From Cyanobium sp. Aljojuca 7A6 (GTDB taxonomy: Bacteria > Cyanobacteriota > Cyanobacteriia > PCC-6307 > Cyanobiaceae), in NCBI RefSeq assembly GCF_024346455.1, contig NZ_JAGQCY010000002.1, positions 62,001 to 126,000 on the forward strand: 64,000 nt of DNA, read 5' to 3'. Made by a program: the position numbers and the translations under genes. A model generated the notes under the pieces. It saw only the letters and a list, made by a program, of their open reading frames with translations, was not told where the DNA came from and did no database searches. Each line of letters begins with the position of its first letter. Position 1 is the first letter of the stretch. Positions 2,098 to 12,550 of this stretch are shown in pieces.

Positions 2098-2780
2098 GCG
2101 ATCAGCAGGGCGCCGAGCAGCAGCAGGAGGATGGCCGGGATGCTCTGCAGCTGCAGGGTGGTCACCGGCAGGGATTGGCTGAGGCTGGGGCCCAACCCGC
2201 TCGCCAGCAGACCGCCCAGGATCAGACCCAGGCAAAGCAGGGCGAAGGACCAGCCCACCGCTGCCAGGAACTTCCCACGGCGCCGCTGCAGGTTGAGCAG
2301 GGTGACCCCGGTGGCCAGCGCCGTCAGCAGTTCGGGGGCGGCTCCGGGCATCAGCACGAGCAACACCAGCAGCACGCCATCGGCGGCCAGGGGAAACCAG
2401 AGATCCCGGCCGGTGGCCAACTGCAGCTGGGGCAGGGAGAAGCTGGGACGGGGAAGGCGGGATGGGGGGAGCTGGGGCAGGCTCGGCAGGGCGGACAGGG
2501 CCGGACGGCTCGGTGGCGGTGAGGCCTGTTCCCTCTGGGAGGCGGAGCGGGCGGCGCTGCTGACCCGGCCCTGCTGGCGTTCCTTCAAGCGATCCATCAA
2601 CACCGCGTCATAGGCGGCCTCAATGCGGGAGCGAACCATGGGGTCGTCACCGGCCTCATCCAGCCGCGCCAGCTTGGCCTCCTGGACGGAGTCGAAGGAA
2701 GCATCAGGAGCGACTCCGAGCCGCTCATACGGATCGGAGGCGTCAGGGGACGGCTGGGCCAGGTCAGATCCTTGGTTCAT
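2094..2780 (-). CDS. CPP1-like (DUF3353) J-like membrane protein
   Basis: A 228-residue protein with a degenerate J-domain-like N-terminus ([21 protein letters not shown], about 16-36). A proline- and serine-rich linker follows (about 75-120), and then a hydrophobic C-terminal half with about three or four membrane spans. This arrangement matches the CPP1 family (chaperone-like protein of protochlorophyllide oxidoreductase), known in plants to stabilise POR; cyanobacterial members are assumed to act on thylakoid or chlorophyll enzymes. The HPD tripeptide of true DnaJ proteins is not present, as is usual in the family. The gene converges on hslO with a four-base overlap, so the two mRNAs have complementary 3' ends. 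Confidence 0.85.
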
Positions 2781-2804
2781 GCCACCGAGCGTATCGAGCC
2801 AGGA

Positions 2805-3086
2805 CTAAAAAAGCGGTTCACTGCGGTGATATCCCGCTTCCTGTTGCAGTCGGCGGGTGCAGGCCTCGGCTTCCTCGATGGCCAGCGAACGGCGACGTTT
2901 GAGCAGAGGCATCTGGGGCGGCAGGTGGCTGCCCTCACGCATCTCCACGGCCCCTTGCGAGGGCTGGAAACTGACGTAATCACTGCCCCCGTCACTGCGG
3001 GGACGCACCAGCCAGAGCTGGGATGGCGTCACGGATCGAGGCATCGCTGTGACCGTCCGTTGCGGCGTGACAAATTGTTGCTTCAT
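2805..3086 (-). CDS. Small hypothetical protein, 93 residues
   Basis: The frame starts at ATG 3086 (MKQQFVTPQRTVTAMPRSV) and ends just upstream of the CPP1-like gene. It contains a short WLVRPRSDGGSDYVSF segment, a QMPLLKRRRSLAIEEAEA stretch and a predicted helix toward the C-terminus, and no membrane span or signal peptide. I do not recognise the family; the pattern recalls small basic cyanobacterial proteins such as DUF1651, but I cannot confirm membership. An internal ATG (MPRSVTPSQLWLV) is an alternative start. It lies on the same strand between prfC upstream and the CPP1-like gene downstream, which suggests cotranscription. Confidence 0.55.
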   Translation of the reverse strand: MKQQFVTPQRTVTAMPRSVTPSQLWLVRPRSDGGSDYVSFQPSQGAVEMREGSHLPPQMPLLKRRRSLAIEEAEACTRRLQQEAGYHRSEPLF

Positions 3087-3151
3087 TCTGCCCCCTCCGA
3101 TCGCCTGGCGCGAGGGAGGGTTTCCTCCCGTGGCGCCGTCGGGACCCTGGC

Positions 3152-4804
3152 TCAGAGGGCGATGGGTTCCACGCCACTCACCACAGGCGCCACCCCGTGC
3201 AGCTCCAGCTGCGGATGGTCCTCCTGCAGCTGGTGCAGGTTCCAGTCGTTGCGGAACAGCAGCACCGGTCGGTCCCAGGCATCGCGAACCGTCTTGCAGT
3301 TGAACAGACGGCCGACGCTCTCGAGGGCCGGCCAACCGCCGCTCACCCAGCGGGCAACGCTGAATTCCAGCGGTTCCAGCCGGCTGGTGACGCCGTATTC
3401 GTTCTCCAGCCGATACTGAACCACCTCAAGCTGCAGCTGGCCCACCGCCGCCAGGATCGGATCCCGCTTGCTGGGGTCGGTGTCGTAGAGCACCTGAACG
3501 GCCCCCTCTTCGCGCAGCTCGTTCACCCCCTTGCGGAAGCTCTTGAAGGCCGAGGGATTGGGATTGCGCAGCCAGGCGAAGATCTCGGGCGAGAAGCAGG
3601 GAATGCCCTCGTATTCCACCCGGGAGCCGGTGTAGAGGGTGTCGCCGATCGCGAACATGCCGGGGTTGTTGAGGCCGATCACATCGCCGGGGTAGGCATC
3701 GTCCACCACCTCCCGGTCCTGGCCAAACAGCTTCTGTGGTCGCGACAGACGGATGGTGCGCCCACTGCGGGCGTGGCGCACGTTCATGTCCTTTTCGAAG
3801 CGGCCACTGCAGACCCGAACGAAGGCCACCCGGTCCCGGTGGCGCGGGTCCATGTTGGCTTGCAGCTTGAAGACGAAACCGCTGAACTCCGGCCGCAGCG
3901 GATCCACCGGCCCCTGGTCACTCTCCCTGGCCACCGGGGGCTGGGCCAGCCCCAGGAAGGCATCAAGAAAGGGACGCACCCCGAAATTGGTCATCGCCGA
4001 ACCGAAGAACACCGGACTCAGCTCACCGGCGTGCACCTGCTCCAGATCCAGGGCCGCTCCGGCGCCCTTCACCAGCTCCAGTTCCTCCAGGGCCTGCTCC
4101 AGCAACTCCGCTTCCACCCGCTGAGCGCGGTCGGGATCCCCGGGAGCCAGGCGTCGCTCCAGGCTCTGCCGGCCCCGTTCAGCCCGTTCGAACAGCAGCA
4201 GATCCTGGGAGCGCCTGTCGATCACGCCCCGGAAACGGTCGCCGCTGCCGATCGGCCAGTTGACCGGCCAGCAGGCCAGGCCCAGCTCCTGCTCGATCTC
4301 ATCAATCAGCTCCAAGGGGTCACGCCCCGGCCGGTCCATCTTGTTGACGAAGGTGAAGATCGGGATCCGCCGCATCCGGCAGACCTCGAACAGCTTGCGG
4401 GTCTGGGGTTCGAGACCCTTGGCCGCATCCACCAGCATCACGGCGTTGTCAGCGGCGGCCAGGGTCCGGTAGGTGTCCTCGGAGAAGTCCTGGTGGCCGG
4501 GTGTGTCGAGCAGGTTGATCGTGCTGCCGGCGTAGTCGAACTGGAGCACGGTGGAGGTGATCGAGATGCCGCGCTGCTTCTCCAGTTCCATCCAGTCGGA
4601 GGTCACCTTGCGCTGCTCCCCCTTGGCCTTCACCGCCCCGGCCTGCTGGATGGCACCGCCGTAGAGGAGCAGCTTCTCGGTGAGGGTGGTCTTGCCCGCA
4701 TCGGGGTGGGAAATGATCGCGAAATTGCGCCGCCGGCTGACCGCCGCCGCCAGGTCCGTGGCGTCGGAATCAGGTGCAGGGGCAGAAGAGGAGCTGGTGA
4801 CCAT
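3152..4804 (-). CDS. prfC: Peptide chain release factor 3 (RF3 GTPase)
   Basis: A 550-residue translational GTPase that recycles RF1/RF2 from the ribosome after peptide release. It has a G1 motif (HPDAGKTT, about residues 34-41), switch I (RGISITSTV), G3 ([16 protein letters not shown]) and G4 (NKMDRPGRD). The EDTYRTL sequence after the DTPGH box separates RF3 from EF-G, which has a different switch II. The C-terminal beta-barrel domains are complete for the family. Its ATG overlaps the TGA of the upstream methyltransferase by one base (TGATG), implying translational coupling. The first 27 residues are a low-complexity Ser/Ala extension. Confidence 0.96.
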
Positions 4805-5496: not shown

Positions 5497-5606
5497 CGAC
5501 CCAGCCTCCCAGTCCGCCGCTGCAGGCACCGTGGCTGGTGGGTGGGTGCCGTTGCAGACCCTACAGGTGGCGTTATGGTTTCCAGCACGCCTCGGCCGTA
5601 CCCACC

Positions 5607-7964
5607 GTGACCCTGTCCGCCGCCCGTCCAGCCACGCCCGCCATGGCGGCAATGTCTCCCGGAAGCGAAGGGATCATCACGCCGTCAGCCGATTTTCCGC
5701 TCACCGCCCCGGCGGCCTATCCGGTGTTCTATCGGACCTACAGCCGCAAGACCGCCAGCGGCGGTCGGGAGAGCTGGCATGAGGTGGCCGAACGCAACCT
5801 CGAAGGCCTGCGGGTGCTCGGCTCCCTCGCACCCGACGAGGTGGAGCTGATCCGGCGCATGCAACGCCATCAGATGGCCCTGCCGTCCGGGCGCTGGCTG
5901 TGGATCGGCGGCACTGAGTGGATCGAGCAACCCGAAAACTTCTCCGGTGCCTACAACTGCACCTCCACGAATCTGGTGGACTGGGAAGCCTTCGCCCTGA
6001 TGATGGATCTGGCGATGATGGGCTGTGGCACCGGCGCCATCATCGAGCCCCACCTGATCGCCCGTCTGCCGAAGGTGCGCAACACCCTCGTCATCGATGG
6101 GGTCACTGACATCGGCGTGACCCCGATCGGATCCCGTCAGCAGCAGACCAGCCACCGGATCGAGGGCCAGCAGGTCAGCGTGCGGGTGGGTGACACCCGA
6201 GCTGGCTGGGTGGAAAGCTACCGGCTGCTGCTCAATCTCTGCAGTGATGAGCGCTTCGACGGCCCCGTCCATGTGTCGGTGGACCTTTCCGATGTGCGTC
6301 CTGTGGGCGAAACGCTCAAGGGCTTTGGCGGCATGGCCAACCCCGTCAAGTTGAGGGATCTCTACGGCCGTGTCGCCCAGATTCTCAACAAGGCCAGGGG
6401 CCGCCAGCTCACCTCGGTGGAGTGCTGTCTGCTGATCGATGAAGCGGCAGTGACCATCGTGGCCGGCAACATCCGCCGCAGCGCCGGCATGCGCCAGTTC
6501 TGCGCCGACGATGATTCAGCTCTCGGTGCCAAGGAGAACCTCTGGCAACAGGACGGCCAGGGCAGCTGGCGCATCGATCCCGAGCGCGATGCCCTGCGCA
6601 TGGCCAACCACACCCGGGTGTTCCATGTCCGGCCCAGCCGCGAGGTGGTCCTAGAGGCGGTCAACAAACAGTTCCAGTCGGGGGAGGGAGCCATCCAGTT
6701 CGCCCCCGAGGCGATTGCCCGCTCCAATGCCGACCTGCTCACCACCCCCGAGTTGCGCACCGAGTTCATCGGCCTGTACTGCGACCAGGGCAAGGAGGAG
6801 GCCAGCCGCTGGCTGCAGCTGCACCATCCCCAGGTCAGCGACGCCGAGCTCGAACATCGGCTTGGCCGCTACGGACTCAACCCTTGCGGTGAGATTCTCG
6901 GGGCCGACTTCCACTGCAACCTGGCCGAGATCCACCTCAATCGGATCGATCCGCACGACCACCAGGCCCAGGCCGACGCCTTCAAGGCCGGAGGACTGGC
7001 CGTGGCCTGCCTGCTGAATCACCGCTTTGAGGTCGAGCGTTACCGCCAGAGCCGGGCCTGGGATCCGATCGTGGGTGTCAGCTTCACAGGTCTGTTCGAT
7101 TTCTTTGTGCATGCCTTCGGCACCCCTTGGCTGCAGTGGTGGGAAGCAGGCCGTCCTGACTCTGAAGAGGGGCGTGCCTTCCGGGCCGAGGAAGCGGCCT
7201 ATCTGTCGCGCTGGAAGCAGTGCGTGCACGACGCGGTGTGGGACTACTGCGATCGCCACGCCATGCGTCGCCCCAACCGCTGCACCACCGTCCAACCGGC
7301 AGGCACCAAGAGTCTTCTCACCGGCGCCAGCCCTGGCTGGCATCCCCCCAAGGCCCAGCGGTTCATTCGGCGCATCACCTTCCGTAAGAACGATCCGGTG
7401 GCCCTCGCCTGCATGGACTACGGCTACGCCATCGTTCCGTCCCAGTCGGACAAGGACGAGCAGGGGCGTCTGCTGAATGATCCGTTTGATCCGCGCTGCA
7501 CCGAATGGCTGGTGGAGATCCCCACCGAGGTCAGCTGGGCCAACCTGCCTGGTGCCGATCAGGTGGAGATCAACAATTTCTCCGCCCTGGCCCAGTTTGA
7601 TTTCTACATGCAGGTGCAACGCCACTTCACCACCCACAACACCTCCGCCACCGTGGAGTTTCGTGAGCATGAAATCGAGGCACTGGCCGCCGCGATCCAC
7701 CAGACCATCGAGAATGGGGAGGGATACATCTCCGCTGCTCTTCTGGCTCGGTTTGATGCCAATGCCACCTTCCCCCGATTGCCCTTTGAGCCGATTGATC
7801 AGGCCACCTATCACCAGATGGTCCTTGAGGTTGAGCAGCGTCGTCAGTGCGGTGATTTCTTCCTTGCTCTGCAGAAGTATGACGGAGGTGAGCTGGTTGA
7901 AGCCGGTCCTGCCGGTTGCGATTCTGATAAGTGCCTCCTACCTCTGGCCAAGCCAGAAAGTTGA
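5607..7964 (+). CDS. nrdJ: Adenosylcobalamin-dependent ribonucleoside-triphosphate reductase (class II, monomeric)
   Basis: A 785-residue class II ribonucleotide reductase making dNTPs with coenzyme B12 as radical generator. The thiyl-radical cysteine is C427 in NPCGEILG, the active-site redox pair is C118 (YNCTST) with C437 (FHCNL), and the C-terminal reducing pair is C771/C776 (CDSDKC). The N-terminal YRTYSRK and the [11 protein letters not shown] segment fit the single-chain Lactobacillus-type enzyme, and no intein interrupts it. The start is uncertain: GTG 5607, ATG 5643 and ATG 5652 are all possible, with recognisable sequence beginning near [19 protein letters not shown]. The 110-base gap from the divergent methyltransferase must hold both promoters; I see no clear cobalamin riboswitch in it. 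Confidence 0.95.
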
Positions 7965-7970
7965 GCGGAA

Positions 7971-8100
7971 GCCTTGGCGGCTGCAGCCCTGACGCACGGA
8001 ATCCTTTCCTCAGGCCAGCCGCCCGGTTCGCTCAGGTTTGAGGGGCGCTCCCTGGATGGTTCAGCCCAAAAATGACTCAATCAGTGCCAGCCGCCAAGGC
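7971..8100. repeat. 13-bp perfect inverted repeat spanning the nrdJ/siaD junction
   Basis: GCCTTGGCGGCTG at 7971-7983, just after the nrdJ stop, is exactly complementary to CAGCCGCCAAGGC at 8088-8100 inside the siaD 3' end, with 104 bases between. No T-tract follows either arm, so it is not a canonical intrinsic terminator. It may be a chance match or a trace of insertion of the adjacent AT-richer module. Confidence 0.45.
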
Positions 8101-8934
8101 GCTGATGACCCGGTGGCTGAGGGGATCGGCTGGGTCGATGACCACCAGCCTGTCGCGGCCATCGTTCTTGGCCATGAGCAGGGCTTTGTCAGCTCGCCGG
8201 AAAGTCGCGTCATAATTTTCATCGGACTTGTGCTCGGTCAGCCCCAAACTGGCCGTGAGATTCAATTCCATGTCGTCGATAGAAACGCGCATATTACGAA
8301 TATTGCTTAACATGCGCTTAGCCACTATTTCGGCCGTGGATAGATCGGCATCAATCAGCAAGGCCATGAATTCTTCGCCTCCCCATCTGGCAATGATGTC
8401 GTAGTGCCGCAAGCTGCTGGAGAGGGCCTTGACGAAGTCCACCAGCATCAGATCTCCAGTGGCATGGCCATACTCGTCGTTGATCAACTTGAAATGATCC
8501 ACATCCAGAATGATCATCGAGTAGGTGGAGCCATGTCTAGAGGCTCGCTGGTCTTCCTCAAGGCAGCGTTCTGCCATGAAACGTCGGTTGGAAACCCCCG
8601 TCAGTGAATCATGGGTAGAGGCCTCAAAGAGCGACAGATTAAGTTCCTTCAGTGAGGACTGATACAGATCTGAAATTTTAACTACACGTTTGATCTGCCG
8701 TAATTGCTTCTCGTAGCGATTCGCCAGACTGCGGTTACTTTCGAGAACATGTGACTGGTAAAGATCAGAGATATCAGCCACTCTCTCCAGCCGATCAACC
8801 TGTTCTTCGATGCGATGCCACAAGCGAGAAAGCAGATGACGTATGGGATCATTATCAAACCGGTGATCGGCTAGAACTGCCATCACCTCCTGCTCCAATT
8901 GATCGTCAGACTTTGAGAGGGAAGGGTCAACCAT
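8077..8934 (-). CDS. siaD: SiaD-like diguanylate cyclase (coiled-coil + GGDEF)
   Basis: A 285-residue cytoplasmic enzyme predicted to make cyclic di-GMP from two GTP. The GGDEF domain occupies about residues 105-270 with the active-site GGEEF at 185-189 and a product-inhibition I-site RHYD at 176-179, exactly five residues before it. The N-terminal third is helical and carries a duplicated segment: RLERVADISDLYQS (48-61) and QIKRVVKISDLYQS (80-93), spaced 32 residues, likely a coiled coil. Pseudomonas SiaD has the same plan and is activated by SiaC binding to this region. It is the last gene of a four-gene siaABCD-like operon; siaC ends one base before its ATG (TGA-G-ATG). No membrane span. 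Local G+C is about 40% in the line 8641-8700. Confidence 0.92.
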   Translation of the reverse strand: MVDPSLSKSDDQLEQEVMAVLADHRFDNDPIRHLLSRLWHRIEEQVDRLERVADISDLYQSHVLESNRSLANRYEKQLRQIKRVVKISDLYQSSLKELNLSLFEASTHDSLTGVSNRRFMAERCLEEDQRASRHGSTYSMIILDVDHFKLINDEYGHATGDLMLVDFVKALSSSLRHYDIIARWGGEEFMALLIDADLSTAEIVAKRMLSNIRNMRVSIDDMELNLTASLGLTEHKSDENYDATFRRADKALLMAKNDGRDRLVVIDPADPLSHRVISALAAGTD

Positions 8935-8935
8935 C

Positions 8936-9331
8936 TCAGGCGTTGATGGAGAGAATCAAGAATGGAAAGGTATAGTCTTCCTTAAACTCAGAGCCCAGTT
9001 CGGCGGAGCGGGGATTTCTGTCATCGAACATCCACTGAACCAAAACTTCTTTGCCACTTTCGAAGGCTGTTTGCAGCGAGTCAAAAATATCGATCATGAA
9101 TCGAATGCTGCTGGTATTGAGGTAGTTCAAATGCAGTTCAAGCGTAAGGGAGTGTTCAGCACTTGAAAGGTAGGATTCAATCCATTGAATCAACTGATCG
9201 TAAAGTTCAAAAGAATTCTCCGGATACGACTCGCCACTCATGACGACGACACCTGCTTTCCAATCCGCCCGAATCGATGGGCTGGATTGAGAGCCGGGCA
9301 CAGAGAGATTGAGTTCTTCGCTGCTGCTCAT
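8936..9331 (-). CDS. siaC: SiaC-like switch protein (DUF1987)
   Basis: A 131-residue protein of the DUF1987/SiaC family. In Pseudomonas aeruginosa SiaC is phosphorylated on a threonine by SiaB, dephosphorylated by SiaA, and in the unphosphorylated form binds and activates SiaD. Here the segment LHLNYLNTSSIRFMIDIFDSL contains the conserved N-T-S-S; the candidate phospho-threonine is T73. GESYPENSFELYDQLIQWI also fits the family. Start ATG 9331 lies four bases after the siaB stop; an ATG at 9388 in the same frame would overlap siaB and add a non-conserved tail. The gene is AT-richer than its surroundings (26 G/C in 9121-9180). Confidence 0.9.
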   Translation of the reverse strand: MSSSEELNLSVPGSQSSPSIRADWKAGVVVMSGESYPENSFELYDQLIQWIESYLSSAEHSLTLELHLNYLNTSSIRFMIDIFDSLQTAFESGKEVLVQWMFDDRNPRSAELGSEFKEDYTFPFLILSINA

Positions 9332-9335
9332 GGGA

Positions 9336-9884
9336 TCAGATGATGGCCCGAAGGCTGAAGAAGGCACGGCCTGGCTCAAGGGGATCAAGGGAGGCCTCCA
9401 CCGGTTGGCTCGAGCGCCTGGCGATTTCGATCAGTCCCAGGCCGGCTCCCTGGCCAGGGGTCTGGGTGTGGGGCTGGCGCAACTGCTGTTTATAGAGCAG
9501 CTTCAGCTGGGCCTTGTCGCAGTCTGCGAGTTCGTGGATCCGTTTCAGCAGGGCTTGACCATCCTCCATCTCTACGAGGTTACCTGCACACACGGCGTAA
9601 TGGCCAGCCTCGGCGGCTGCAATGACGACCGTGGCCGAGGACTCGGAATCGCTGAAGCCGTGGCTTGTTGCATAATTCCTGATATTCTGACTCATCTCGA
9701 TATAGACGCTGAACACATCCATGACCTCCAGTTCAGGAGCGTGGTTGGATTCAATGTGTTCCTTAAGGGCAGATCCGATCTCCCCAATCAGGTTGGTGGA
9801 GATGGGTCCGTTGAAGCAGATGAGGATCTGATGATTGCTGAAAAACTCTCTCAGCGAAATCAGACTGGTGGTGCTGATGGTCAT
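9336..9884 (-). CDS. siaB: SiaB-like anti-sigma-type protein kinase
   Basis: A 182-residue protein with the GHKL/HATPase fold expected of SiaB, the kinase that phosphorylates SiaC. An N-box-like EMSQNIRNYA (63-72) and a glycine-rich GQGAGLGLIEIARRS lid (144-158) are visible. ATG 9884 is the only start that gives the family's usual length without long overlap with siaA. It overlaps the TGA of a 26-codon frame by four bases (ATGA). The sequence upstream of this ATG has no good Shine-Dalgarno element, so translation probably depends on coupling to that small frame. Antagonism with SiaA would set the SiaC phosphorylation level. Confidence 0.88.
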   Translation of the reverse strand: MTISTTSLISLREFFSNHQILICFNGPISTNLIGEIGSALKEHIESNHAPELEVMDVFSVYIEMSQNIRNYATSHGFSDSESSATVVIAAAEAGHYAVCAGNLVEMEDGQALLKRIHELADCDKAQLKLLYKQQLRQPHTQTPGQGAGLGLIEIARRSSQPVEASLDPLEPGRAFFSLRAII

Positions 9885-9961
9885 CGCTTCAAGTCCGAGG
9901 CGGCCACTTGAGTTGTCGTGGTCAAAGCAGCCATGGGGGCGTTGTTGATCAGGTAGGACAT
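9881..9961 (-). CDS. 26-codon ORF linking siaA and siaB
   Basis: A reading frame of 26 residues (MSYLINNAPMAALTTTTQVA...SDLKR) lies exactly between siaA and siaB. Its ATG overlaps the siaA stop (TGATG) and its TGA overlaps the siaB start (ATGA). An AGGAG Shine-Dalgarno sequence sits eight bases upstream, inside the siaA 3' end. These junctions suggest it is translated. It may be a small protein or only a coupling leader that delivers ribosomes to siaB. No known family, no membrane span. Confidence 0.55.
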   Translation of the reverse strand: MSYLINNAPMAALTTTTQVAASDLKR

Positions 9962-11280
9962 CAAGGAATCTCCTGGGAGAAGCGGAAGGAGAGGATCGTG
10001 ATGTCGTCCCGCTGCGGGTGACGTCCACGAAACTCTTCCAGCGCATCGGCCAAGGCTTGACGCTGGTGTTCCAGGGGTTGGCGCGCCAGCTGAATCAACC
10101 ACTCCTTGAATTGCTGGGTGCCCAGTGAGAAACCGTCTTCGCCTCCTGATTGGTCGAGCAGGCCATCGGTGGTCAGGTAGTAGGTGCAGTCCGGCAGCAA
10201 CGGTATGTCGTGGTCCGTGTAGGCACCGACGCGTTGATCACAGATCGCCCGATGGTCTCCCCTGAGCATGTGCATGGTTTGCCCATCAGTCCAATAGAGA
10301 CTGATCTTTGCGCCAGCAAATCTAAGCGTTCTGGCTTCAAAGTCAAGGCGCACGAGTCCAATGTCCATGCTGGTCGCGATGGACTTGCTCATCCTGGCCC
10401 CATGCAGCAGTGTCCGCATGGCCGTATCGGTGCAGCTCAGGATGGCGGCAGGGGAGGTGATCCCCACTTCCATGATCGAACGATCAATCCCCGCCCTGGC
10501 GAGCATGGTCATCATGGCCCCTGAGACCCCATGCCCAGCGCAGTCGGCCACCCCAGCGAGGCAGTGCCCACCTTCGGAGTGGAAGATGTAGTAGTCACCT
10601 CCCACCGTGTCGCGTGGCAGCCAGAGGATGAAGTGATTGCTGCCGAAGGTGTCCTGGAGCTGGCGATCCGGAAGGATCGATCTCTGCAGCAGCCCGGCGT
10701 AGTTGATGGAGGCTTCGATCTGTCGATTGGCTTCCAGCAATTGCTGATTGCTGGCTTCTCCAGCCATGAGTGCCTGGCGCATCTTGACGAGCACCATGTT
10801 GAAGGTCTGGGCAAGCTTCGAGATTTCATCGTTGCTTCTGATCGTCAGCAGGCTCGTCCTGTCACCGCTCTCGATCTCACTGGCTTCGCGGACCAGTCGA
10901 GCGATCGGACGGATGATCCGCCTGGTGATGATCTGATAGGAGATGACCGCCAGGATGACCAGTAGCAGGGTGAGAATCAGTGAGACATAGATCTCCGCTG
11001 ATCGGGCACCGGAAACCATCAGCAGCTGGATAGCCGCAACGACCAAGTACAGCAACACGAGCCCATTGACAATGGCAATGAGAGTGAAGACCCGCTGAAT
11101 GGACGCCACCGTTCTTCTCGATGGCAGAGGCTGTCTGTTTGGTTCGTTCCGGGTGTTGGTGTTCGGTTCGGACTCCCCGGCATCAGGCGGCAGGACTGGG
11201 AGCGTCATTGCCTGGGGATTCTTTGGGCCCATGGAGGCCTGCAGGGTGTCGGGCAAACAGGAGAATGCTGCTGCAGACAT
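9961..11280 (-). CDS. siaA: SiaA-like membrane PP2C phosphatase with HAMP domain
   Basis: A 439-residue membrane phosphatase. Two membrane helices (about 65-89 and 97-118) are separated by only seven residues (SGARSAE). A HAMP domain (about 118-170), a helical linker and a PP2C/SpoIIE-type phosphatase domain follow, with VGGDYY (226-231), DCAGHGVSGA (246-255) and YLTTDGLLDQ holding the metal-binding aspartates. In Pseudomonas SiaA dephosphorylates SiaC; that protein has a large extracytoplasmic sensor, which is missing here. The start is uncertain: ATGs at 11280, 11232 and 11208 are all in frame before TM1. It heads the operon siaA-ORF26-siaB-siaC-siaD and is divergent from cax. Confidence 0.9.
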   Translation of the reverse strand: MSAAAFSCLPDTLQASMGPKNPQAMTLPVLPPDAGESEPNTNTRNEPNRQPLPSRRTVASIQRVFTLIAIVNGLVLLYLVVAAIQLLMVSGARSAEIYVSLILTLLLVILAVISYQIITRRIIRPIARLVREASEIESGDRTSLLTIRSNDEISKLAQTFNMVLVKMRQALMAGEASNQQLLEANRQIEASINYAGLLQRSILPDRQLQDTFGSNHFILWLPRDTVGGDYYIFHSEGGHCLAGVADCAGHGVSGAMMTMLARAGIDRSIMEVGITSPAAILSCTDTAMRTLLHGARMSKSIATSMDIGLVRLDFEARTLRFAGAKISLYWTDGQTMHMLRGDHRAICDQRVGAYTDHDIPLLPDCTYYLTTDGLLDQSGGEDGFSLGTQQFKEWLIQLARQPLEHQRQALADALEEFRGRHPQRDDITILSFRFSQEIP

Positions 11281-11434
11281 TCTGGGACGAAAGATCCTGG
11301 TGTGCCGTCTACCGCACGAAGGCGCCGGGAGTTGGCACCTCCCATCTCTGGTGTGTTCACGTGGCCGGCTCGCCTGGCCATGGCCCCATTGGTCAACAGT
11401 CGGTCACAATGAGTCACGCTGTTGGCGCTGCTCC

Positions 11435-12550
11435 ATGTCCGCTCGCTTGCGCCTCGCCATCAGCCTGCTGGCGATGCTGCCGGTCGCAGCGGCCGCTGAC
11501 CGGTTTCAGTGGGGCGATGGGATCGTCTTCGTCACCTCGATCCTTTCGATCGTGCCCTTGGCGATCCTTCTGAGTACCGCCACCGAGGAGCTGTCCCTCA
11601 CCCTCGGCCCCTCGATCGGGGCCCTGCTCAATGCCCTGTTCGGCAACGCCACCGAACTGATCATTGCCATCGCGGCCCTGCGGGCCGGCTTGGTGGACAT
11701 CGTCAAGGCCAGCATCACCGGCACGGTCATGGCCAACCTGCTGCTGGCCCTGGGTCTGTCGATGCTGGTGGGGGGCATCGGGCGCAGTGAGCAGCGTTTC
11801 CAGCCGGTGGTGGCACGGGTCAACGGCTCGGCCATGACCCTGGCCGTGCTGGCGATTCTGATCCCGAGCCTGCGGGGGATGGTGGGGGGAGAGGCCGGGG
11901 GGCTGGACGCGGCCGCCGCCGAGTCCTTTTCGCTGTTTGTGGCCTGGGTGCTGCTGGCGGTCTATGGCCTCACGCTGCTGTTCTCTCTGAAAACCCATCG
12001 CACGCTTTACGCGGTGGCAGAAGCGGACCTGATCGTCGATGCTGACGATCCCGGCCACGGCGCTGAACGTGCCCATCGGCCCCCCTTGCTCCCCTGGATC
12101 GCCGTGCTGCTGGCGGCCACCGTGGGGCTGGCCTATGCCTCGGAGCTTTTCGTCGGCGTCGTGGAGACCGTCACCGAGTCCCTCGGCCTCTCGGCCCTGT
12201 TCACCGGCGTGGTGCTGCTGCCCCTGCTGGGCGGCGCCGCCGAGTACCTCACGGCGGTGAGCATGGCGCGCAAGGACAAGATGGACCTGGCCGTCTCGGT
12301 GGCCCTCGGCTCCACCCTGCTGGTGGGTTTGCTGGTGGTGCCGGTGCTGCTGCTGGTGGCTCCCCTGCTGGGCCATCCCCTGGATCTCAGCTTCAACATC
12401 TATGAGGTGGTCGCGGTGGCCACGGCCGTTCTGGTGAGCAATCTGGTCAGTCTCGACGGACGCTCCGACTGGCTCGAGGGCGTGCTCCTGCTGGCGGCCT
12501 ACGCCATCCTCGCGGCTGGCTTTTTCTTCCAGAGCAGCCCCCTGCCATGA
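11435..12550 (+). CDS. cax: Calcium/proton (cation) antiporter, CAX family
   Basis: A 371-residue integral membrane antiporter that exports Ca2+ (possibly other divalent cations) in exchange for protons. Two homologous halves each carry the CAX acidic motif: GNATELIIAIAAL in the first and GGAAEYLTAVSMARKDKMDLAVSVALGS in the second. About eleven hydrophobic segments are visible. ATG 11435 gives a start directly before the first hydrophobic stretch. An in-frame extension upstream to 11099 runs antisense through the siaA 5' end and is rejected. The last four bases (ATGA) overlap the start of the pentapeptide-repeat gene, indicating coupled translation. Confidence 0.93.
   Translation: MSARLRLAISLLAMLPVAAAADRFQWGDGIVFVTSILSIVPLAILLSTATEELSLTLGPSIGALLNALFGNATELIIAIAALRAGLVDIVKASITGTVMANLLLALGLSMLVGGIGRSEQRFQPVVARVNGSAMTLAVLAILIPSLRGMVGGEAGGLDAAAAESFSLFVAWVLLAVYGLTLLFSLKTHRTLYAVAEADLIVDADDPGHGAERAHRPPLLPWIAVLLAATVGLAYASELFVGVVETVTESLGLSALFTGVVLLPLLGGAAEYLTAVSMARKDKMDLAVSVALGSTLLVGLLVVPVLLLVAPLLGHPLDLSFNIYEVVAVATAVLVSNLVSLDGRSDWLEGVLLLAAYAILAAGFFFQSSPLP

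Follow-up and report, generated by a model that had tools for sequence, protein, structure and literature searches.

The closest described relative of the locus considered here is the SiaABCD system of Pseudomonas aeruginosa, in which siaB is PA0171 and the other sia genes presumably carry the numbers PA0172 to PA0169. In this system, the kinase SiaB phosphorylates SiaC at T68 and the phosphatase SiaA reverses this step, while unphosphorylated SiaC binds two stalk motifs of the diguanylate cyclase SiaD and converts an inactive SiaD pentamer into an active 2:4 complex (PMC8457831, PMC7647112). SiaA answers sodium dodecyl sulfate (SDS) and cold through membrane perturbation, and when its first 336 residues, which comprise both helices and the large region between them, were replaced by the CusS counterpart, the cold response, seen as a high biofilm level at room temperature, was lost; polar residues in the transmembrane sequence were proposed by the authors as a possible gauge (PMC12834913). 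We analyzed a 64,000-nucleotide stretch of the picocyanobacterium Cyanobium sp. Aljojuca 7A6 (contig NZ_JAGQCY010000002.1, positions 62,001 to 126,000; hereafter the window, whose own positions are used throughout). Its minus strand carries four consecutive genes at 8077-11280 in the order siaA-siaB-siaC-siaD. The gene order, the four families, the catalytic residues, the N-T-S context of the phosphorylated threonine and both SiaC-binding stalk motifs are those of P. aeruginosa, whereas the neighboring genes differ and the cyanobacterial SiaA lacks the region between its transmembrane helices and falls below the NCBIfam SiaA cut-off.

Open reading frames (ORFs), family profiles and structure matches agreed on the identity of the four genes, as an earlier note made from the sequence had proposed. 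The product of siaB (9336..9884, minus strand; 182 aa from its likely start), a predicted kinase of SiaC, scored 246.7 bits with the NCBIfam SiaB profile (NF038264), above the equivalog cut-off of 225, and also matched DUF6272. The product of siaC (8936..9331, minus; 131 aa from its likely start), the putative regulatory phosphoprotein, reached 186 bits with NF038265 against a cut-off of 150 and belonged to the Pfam SiaC family, which PDB entries name DUF1987. SiaD (8077..8934, minus; 285 aa), the predicted diguanylate cyclase, reached 299.7 bits with NF038266 against a cut-off of 290; its GGDEF domain has the active-site signature GGEEF (8368..8382, minus), five residues ahead of which stands an RxxD motif (RHYD, 8398-8409), in what we take to be the usual place of the product-inhibition site. 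SiaA (siaA, 9961..11280, minus; a 439-aa ORF) found its best NCBIfam match in the SiaA profile (NF038263) at 418.5 bits, under the cut-off of 700, because the match spans only profile positions 287-657 of 658. The family assignment expected in the earlier note thus held in full for three proteins and in part for SiaA, which is, as predicted from these profiles, a sensor-less variant rather than a full member of the SiaA equivalog. For each of the four products, a solved P. aeruginosa Sia protein was the top PDB sequence match (SiaA, 6k4e, E = 1.8e-89; SiaB, 6kko chain A, 2.9e-58; SiaC, 6k4f and 6kko chain C, about 7e-39; SiaD, 7e6g, 1.5e-70). A chance origin of these family matches is excluded.

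To compare individual positions, functional residues taken from PMC8457831 and PMC7647112 were mapped onto the window, 16 further cyanobacterial loci (L054-L069) and 62 proteobacterial loci, with the broken L077 and the cut L085 set aside. In all 17 cyanobacterial rows, D457, D474, G477, D600, G601, D604, G611, F612 and D653 of SiaA were kept, as were the predicted catalytic E61 of SiaB together with N65 (P. aeruginosa E61 corresponds to E117 of the 236-aa mechanically called siaB ORF) and Y65, N67-T68-S69, D79, R103, E110 and D114 of SiaC. SiaA D534 was replaced by E in one cyanobacterial row. The SiaC of the window carries T73 (codon 9113..9115, minus) in an N-T-S-S site, and the alignments bear out the proposal that this residue is the counterpart of the P. 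aeruginosa phosphorylated threonine; the likely siaC start yields the T73 numbering. Both stalk motifs of SiaD read ISDLYQ, the first at residues 55-60 (8755..8772, minus; counterpart of S50-Q54) and the second at residues 87-92 (8659..8676, minus; counterpart of S82-Q86), with the contact residues taken from PMC8457831. S50 and Q54 were kept in 16 of the 17 rows, and I81, S82, D83, Y85 and Q86 in every one. SiaD R125 in the numbering of the paper fell on a serine in the alignment and was not used. Furthermore, comparisons of the window genes with those of eight relatives gave ratios of nonsynonymous to synonymous substitution (dN/dS) of 0.006-0.153 in the 30 of 32 cases in which the ratio was defined, many of them with saturated dS values above 1; for the nearest relative, the ratio was 0.06-0.15 at a dS of only 0.12-0.28.

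What the analysis adds is a sensor-less SiaA common to the whole lineage examined. The "complete" module of the earlier note is therefore right as to the four genes and their order, and not as to the sensor region of SiaA. The window SiaA consists of a first transmembrane helix (residues 64-82, 11035..11091, supported by hydropathy, invariant columns and the model helix), a short loop, a second helix (residues 95-113, 10942..10998, supported by hydropathy and the model helix), a HAMP domain (residues 118-162, 10795..10929; PF00672, 46.6 bits) and a SpoIIE/PP2C phosphatase domain (Pfam stretch, residues 237-434, 9979..10572; PF07228, 74.2 bits; metal-site residues kept), all on the minus strand. 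A gap of 12 residues stands in place of the long sensor region. By hydropathy, the two helices were 12-23 residues apart in all 17 full-length cyanobacterial SiaA proteins. In the proteobacterial relatives, by comparison, the inter-helix region comprised roughly 190-310 aa, and at least 292 residues preceded the HAMP domain in 60 of the 62 open frames (a single transmembrane helix was called in one of these 60, L076). The two short proteobacterial frames were explained by a contig end (L115) and a broken frame (L133); the latter was rejected as a genuinely short SiaA and represents a frame-broken long one. In three proteobacterial proteins tested, the inter-helix region gave a weak dCache_1 match under the Pfam cut-off.

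The same held across the family. SiaA was found in 32 of 400 family genomes, exactly the 32 that contain SiaC, and in none of the 400 above the NF038263 cut-off. All 32 matches began at profile position 260 or later: 30 started at positions 260-316 within open frames of 392-483 aa, and the remaining two were broken or cut (G231 and G213). S60, I61, Q62, F65 and N72 were invariant in all 13 cyanobacterial SiaA sequences aligned. Since S60-I61-Q62 lies directly before the first transmembrane helix and N72 within it, this pattern suggests that the hairpin itself is under constraint. An AlphaFold2 model (alignment of 13 sequences, mean predicted local distance difference test score, pLDDT, 68.8) placed helices at residues 61-88 and 95-137, joined by a six-residue turn, and its top Foldseek matches were 6k4e_B and 6k4e_A, the PP2C domain of P. 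aeruginosa SiaA.

A phosphorylation-controlled cyclase, as the earlier note had it, remains the best reading of the locus, which we consider likely to encode an active SiaABCD partner switch. The grounds are gene content and order, family membership, the catalytic and most contact residues, and purifying selection, while the biochemistry is carried over from P. aeruginosa. Because the key residues for its steps are kept, the core very likely works as it does there: SiaB would phosphorylate SiaC at T73 and so keep it off SiaD, active SiaA would strip the phosphate, and free SiaC would bind both ISDLYQ motifs in the stalk of a SiaD dimer and switch on synthesis of cyclic diguanosine monophosphate (c-di-GMP). 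The output may be attachment or aggregation. The input cannot fully match that of P. aeruginosa, because the cyanobacterial SiaA is without a sensor region. The phosphatase would instead be set by the two-helix hairpin and the HAMP domain, with membrane state as the simplest cue. We favor such a membrane-state input tentatively, because P. aeruginosa SiaA answers membrane perturbation (PMC12834913), and the invariant polar residues of the hairpin would be in keeping with a membrane gauge that needs no sensor region.

Several points weigh against this reading. Among the mapped residues, D29 and M75 of SiaC were replaced by E and I in all 17 cyanobacterial rows, R84 and M88 of SiaD by L and S in 11 rows each, and R618 of SiaA by Q in nine; SiaD R74 was kept in two rows and differed in 15, and one row was devoid of the first stalk motif. 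Signaling may need the very region that is absent in cyanobacteria, because the CusS exchange, which ended the cold response, also removed it (PMC12834913). The SiaA model is moderate in confidence, and the saturated dS values noted above soften the selection estimates. The module can also be done without, because SiaC is missing from 23 of the 42 genomes of the genus and the module is broken or partial in G001, G063 and G231. Finally, no biochemical study of a Sia protein from cyanobacteria is known to us.

The absence of the sensor region, seen by hydropathy in the 17 full-length proteins and in the 30 full-length profile matches, would equally suit a plausible if not favored alternative, in which SiaA is a membrane-tethered constant phosphatase and the switch is set by SiaB, by the ATP/GTP level or by expression of the operon. 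However, a mere tether would need neither the HAMP domain nor a hairpin with invariant residues, and both are kept. An unlikely third possibility is a split receptor, in which a separately encoded membrane or periplasmic protein binds the SiaA hairpin and brings in the signal; the loss of the sensor region with retention of the transmembrane helices and HAMP domain would fit this. Ten ORFs upstream of siaA in six other loci (L064-L069) nevertheless revealed no conserved partner gene and no constant candidate neighbor, a more distant partner lying outside this comparison; seven matched no Pfam family, and the remaining three encode a transposase, a polyphosphate kinase and an alkyl sulfatase. 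It is improbable that SiaC serves another target besides or instead of SiaD, such as a sigma-factor partner switch: its structure resembles an anti-sigma factor antagonist (PMC7647112), yet the main SiaD contact residues are kept on both proteins and siaC and siaD are only 1 nt apart.

Membrane perturbation is the reported cue of P. aeruginosa SiaA, yet the cue could be read by the helices or by the region between them, both of which the CusS exchange removed (PMC12834913). The cyanobacterial proteins represent a natural deletion of the inter-helix region, apparently under selection and with the rest of the switch intact, and make the choice between hairpin and sensor region directly testable. 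The locus also supplies small cyanobacteria with a specific candidate pathway by which conditions at the membrane or at a surface could influence c-di-GMP.

To place the locus within the lineage, the distribution of SiaC was surveyed. Within the genus, 19 of 42 genomes encode SiaC; the count was 32 of 400 genomes for the family (six of 59 genera) and seven of 386 genomes for a phylum-wide draw, two of which lie outside the family and were borderline (24.5 and 20.6 bits against a cut-off of 24.5). The genus and family counts mark the module as a trait of the lineage and not an isolated case, in answer to the genome survey that the earlier note had called for. A contig scan met at least 552 relatives of all kinds, and the 80 best that were retained comprise 18 cyanobacterial loci (Cyanobium, Synechococcus, Aphanothece and uncultured cyanobacteria) and 62 proteobacterial ones. 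Synechococcus sp. CCY 0621, Cyanobium sp. Cruz-8D1 and Aphanothece cf. minutissima CCALA 015 are among the strains with the module. A tree of the four joined Sia proteins (78 rows, 17 cyanobacterial and 61 proteobacterial; L077, L085 and L120 left out) placed the 17 cyanobacterial rows on one side of a branch with a support of 100 in the Shimodaira-Hasegawa-like approximate likelihood ratio test (SH-aLRT). This tree and that of nrdJ were quick ones, built without bootstrap or mixture model and midpoint-rooted for drawing, and the Sia tree carries a long-branch warning for L108 with L129 and for L064 and L067 among the cyanobacteria.

The siaD gene adjoined nrdJ in 28 of the 32 sia genomes, the exceptions being G026, G213 (short contig), G176 and G094 (still near prfC). 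The surroundings of nrdJ were inspected in 12 stretches, from 11 genomes without SiaC and from G026. In three of the 11 (G029, G030 and G034), a chaA-like gene directly followed nrdJ, as an empty site would look, and in seven neither sia nor a chaA-like gene was found next to nrdJ; the eleventh, G001, retains just a frame-broken piece of siaD. An nrdJ tree (38 rows, 24 with sia and 14 without) requires sia to have appeared or disappeared at least five times and does not separate gains from losses within the family; its agreement with the Sia tree, from which G008 is absent, was judged by eye.

The GC content was 0.527 at 8001-10000 against 0.678 for the whole window, and in all 17 cyanobacterial copies every sia gene had a GC content below that of its locus, which marks the low GC as an old feature. 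At third codon positions, GC was 0.55 in siaC and 0.60 in siaD (8077-9388). Because the working residues are kept, dN/dS is low, the copies form one clade and siaD lies beside nrdJ in most genomes, the cyanobacterial module is best regarded as an old, selected and inherited variant and, despite its low GC, no fresh import. That it is a recent import or a decaying remnant that no longer works in this strain, for which the GC contrast and the broken copies might speak, is very improbable and already largely refuted by the age of the low GC, the shared nrdJ site, the single clade under purifying selection, the loss of the sensor region in all 30 full-length proteins and the intact frames of the window copy.

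The broken copies themselves differ. In G001, the neighbor of nrdJ is a siaD remnant that is split over two frames and has an altered active-site signature (L181 11543-12246); the interval from this remnant to the helicase gene gave no match to siaA-siaC, a chaA-like gene or a pentapeptide gene. In G231, a Cyanobium metagenome-assembled genome, SiaC has an internal stop and N-A-S-S for N-T-S-S, and siaA occupies two frames (L077 6207-8384); this module is either decaying or an assembly error. In G063, siaC is split over two frames (L190 8167-8549) in a single-contig genome. Sequencing error is possible at least in G001 and G231, which are drafts, whereas G063 is a single contig. Near the sia locus of G063, a second GGDEF-like match (L190 12942-13436) lies between a methyltransferase gene and prfC.

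The simplest account of this history is that the module was taken up once, long ago, from Proteobacteria, that its sensor region was lost once and that it was then inherited with losses. The direction is suggested by the rarity of the module in cyanobacteria against its breadth in Proteobacteria, and not by a rooted tree. A further and more doubtful possibility is that an ancestor of some Cyanobiaceae took up a proteobacterial module, lost the SiaA sensor region once and retained the bare hairpin, which would gauge the membrane in the simplest form (for temperature, surfactant or lipid change driven by light) and control c-di-GMP by way of threonine phosphorylation. If true, SiaA of this lineage would be a natural minimal receptor whose transmembrane part alone is able to drive it.

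The earlier note had also called a phosphorylation-controlled c-di-GMP switch not usually described in this group, which proved overstated in that c-di-GMP signaling is not unusual in this strain. The genome contained 19 GGDEF matches including SiaD, two of them adjoining and probably one domain, so about 17 other GGDEF domains are present; eight EAL and six PilZ matches indicate enzymes able to remove, and proteins able to read, c-di-GMP. SiaD as the sole cyclase of the genome was thus rejected, and no ComFB-type receptor was found in the genome. The two adjoining half-matches lie in different frames (G000:C32:120700-121160) and suggest a frame-broken cyclase gene in this same genome. Among the genomes surveyed in PMC4284465, c-di-GMP domains were missing only in Prochlorococcus, some Synechococcus and UCYN-A, and its Table 1 counts GGDEF in 61 of 83 genomes. 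c-di-GMP as such is unsurprising in this strain; it is this control route that surprises. Among the open-licence matches listed, no paper dealt with a cyanobacterial Sia module by title or start of abstract, and a review of cyanobacterial Ser/Thr phosphorylation (PMC11863333) uses no word starting with "Sia" in its main text.

Other known systems resemble the locus less closely. The slr1658/slr1659 regulators of cyanobacteria (NCBIfam superfamilies) showed weak profile similarity to SiaB (15.9 bits) and SiaC (18.9 bits), far under the 100-bit cut-off, so the window proteins do not belong to them, and no slr1659-type protein was found elsewhere in the genome. The icfG cluster and RsbW-type switches of Synechocystis likewise combine a phosphatase, an Rsb/Spo-like kinase and phosphoproteins, whereas they are tied to sigma-factor control and the account given of them names no diguanylate cyclase (PMC11863333). 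DesK of Bacillus subtilis, in which polar residues of transmembrane helices read the membrane state, is a possible parallel (PMC12834913), differing in being a sensor kinase; it is likened to SiaA by description, with no homology claimed.

The mechanically called ORFs of siaA, siaB and siaC all begin too early. The most likely starts are 9331 for siaC and 9884 for siaB. For siaA, position 11232 or 11208 is the probable start, given that no open frame extends beyond query residue 9 on the upstream side in L055, L056, L058, L060, L061 and L063. From the likely starts, gaps of 76 nt (siaA-siaB), 4 nt (siaB-siaC) and 1 nt (siaC-siaD) separate the genes. A promoter and terminator scan found four promoter-like sites against 1.8 expected and one terminator-like site against 3.1 expected, with neither kind ahead of siaA on its strand. 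The switch is flanked on the plus strand by a gene for a B12-dependent ribonucleotide reductase (5538..7964; PF21995), which we take to be nrdJ, convergent with siaD and with an annotated ORF start that may be too early, and by a Na/Ca exchanger family gene (11099..12550; PF01699; called chaA here), divergent from siaA and with an annotated ORF start that is too early. Aggregation triggered by SDS, an alkyl sulfate, is what first revealed the Sia system (PMC12834913). In L065, the alkyl sulfatase gene (2309-4069) lies about 2 kb upstream of siaA, a single case and perhaps chance.

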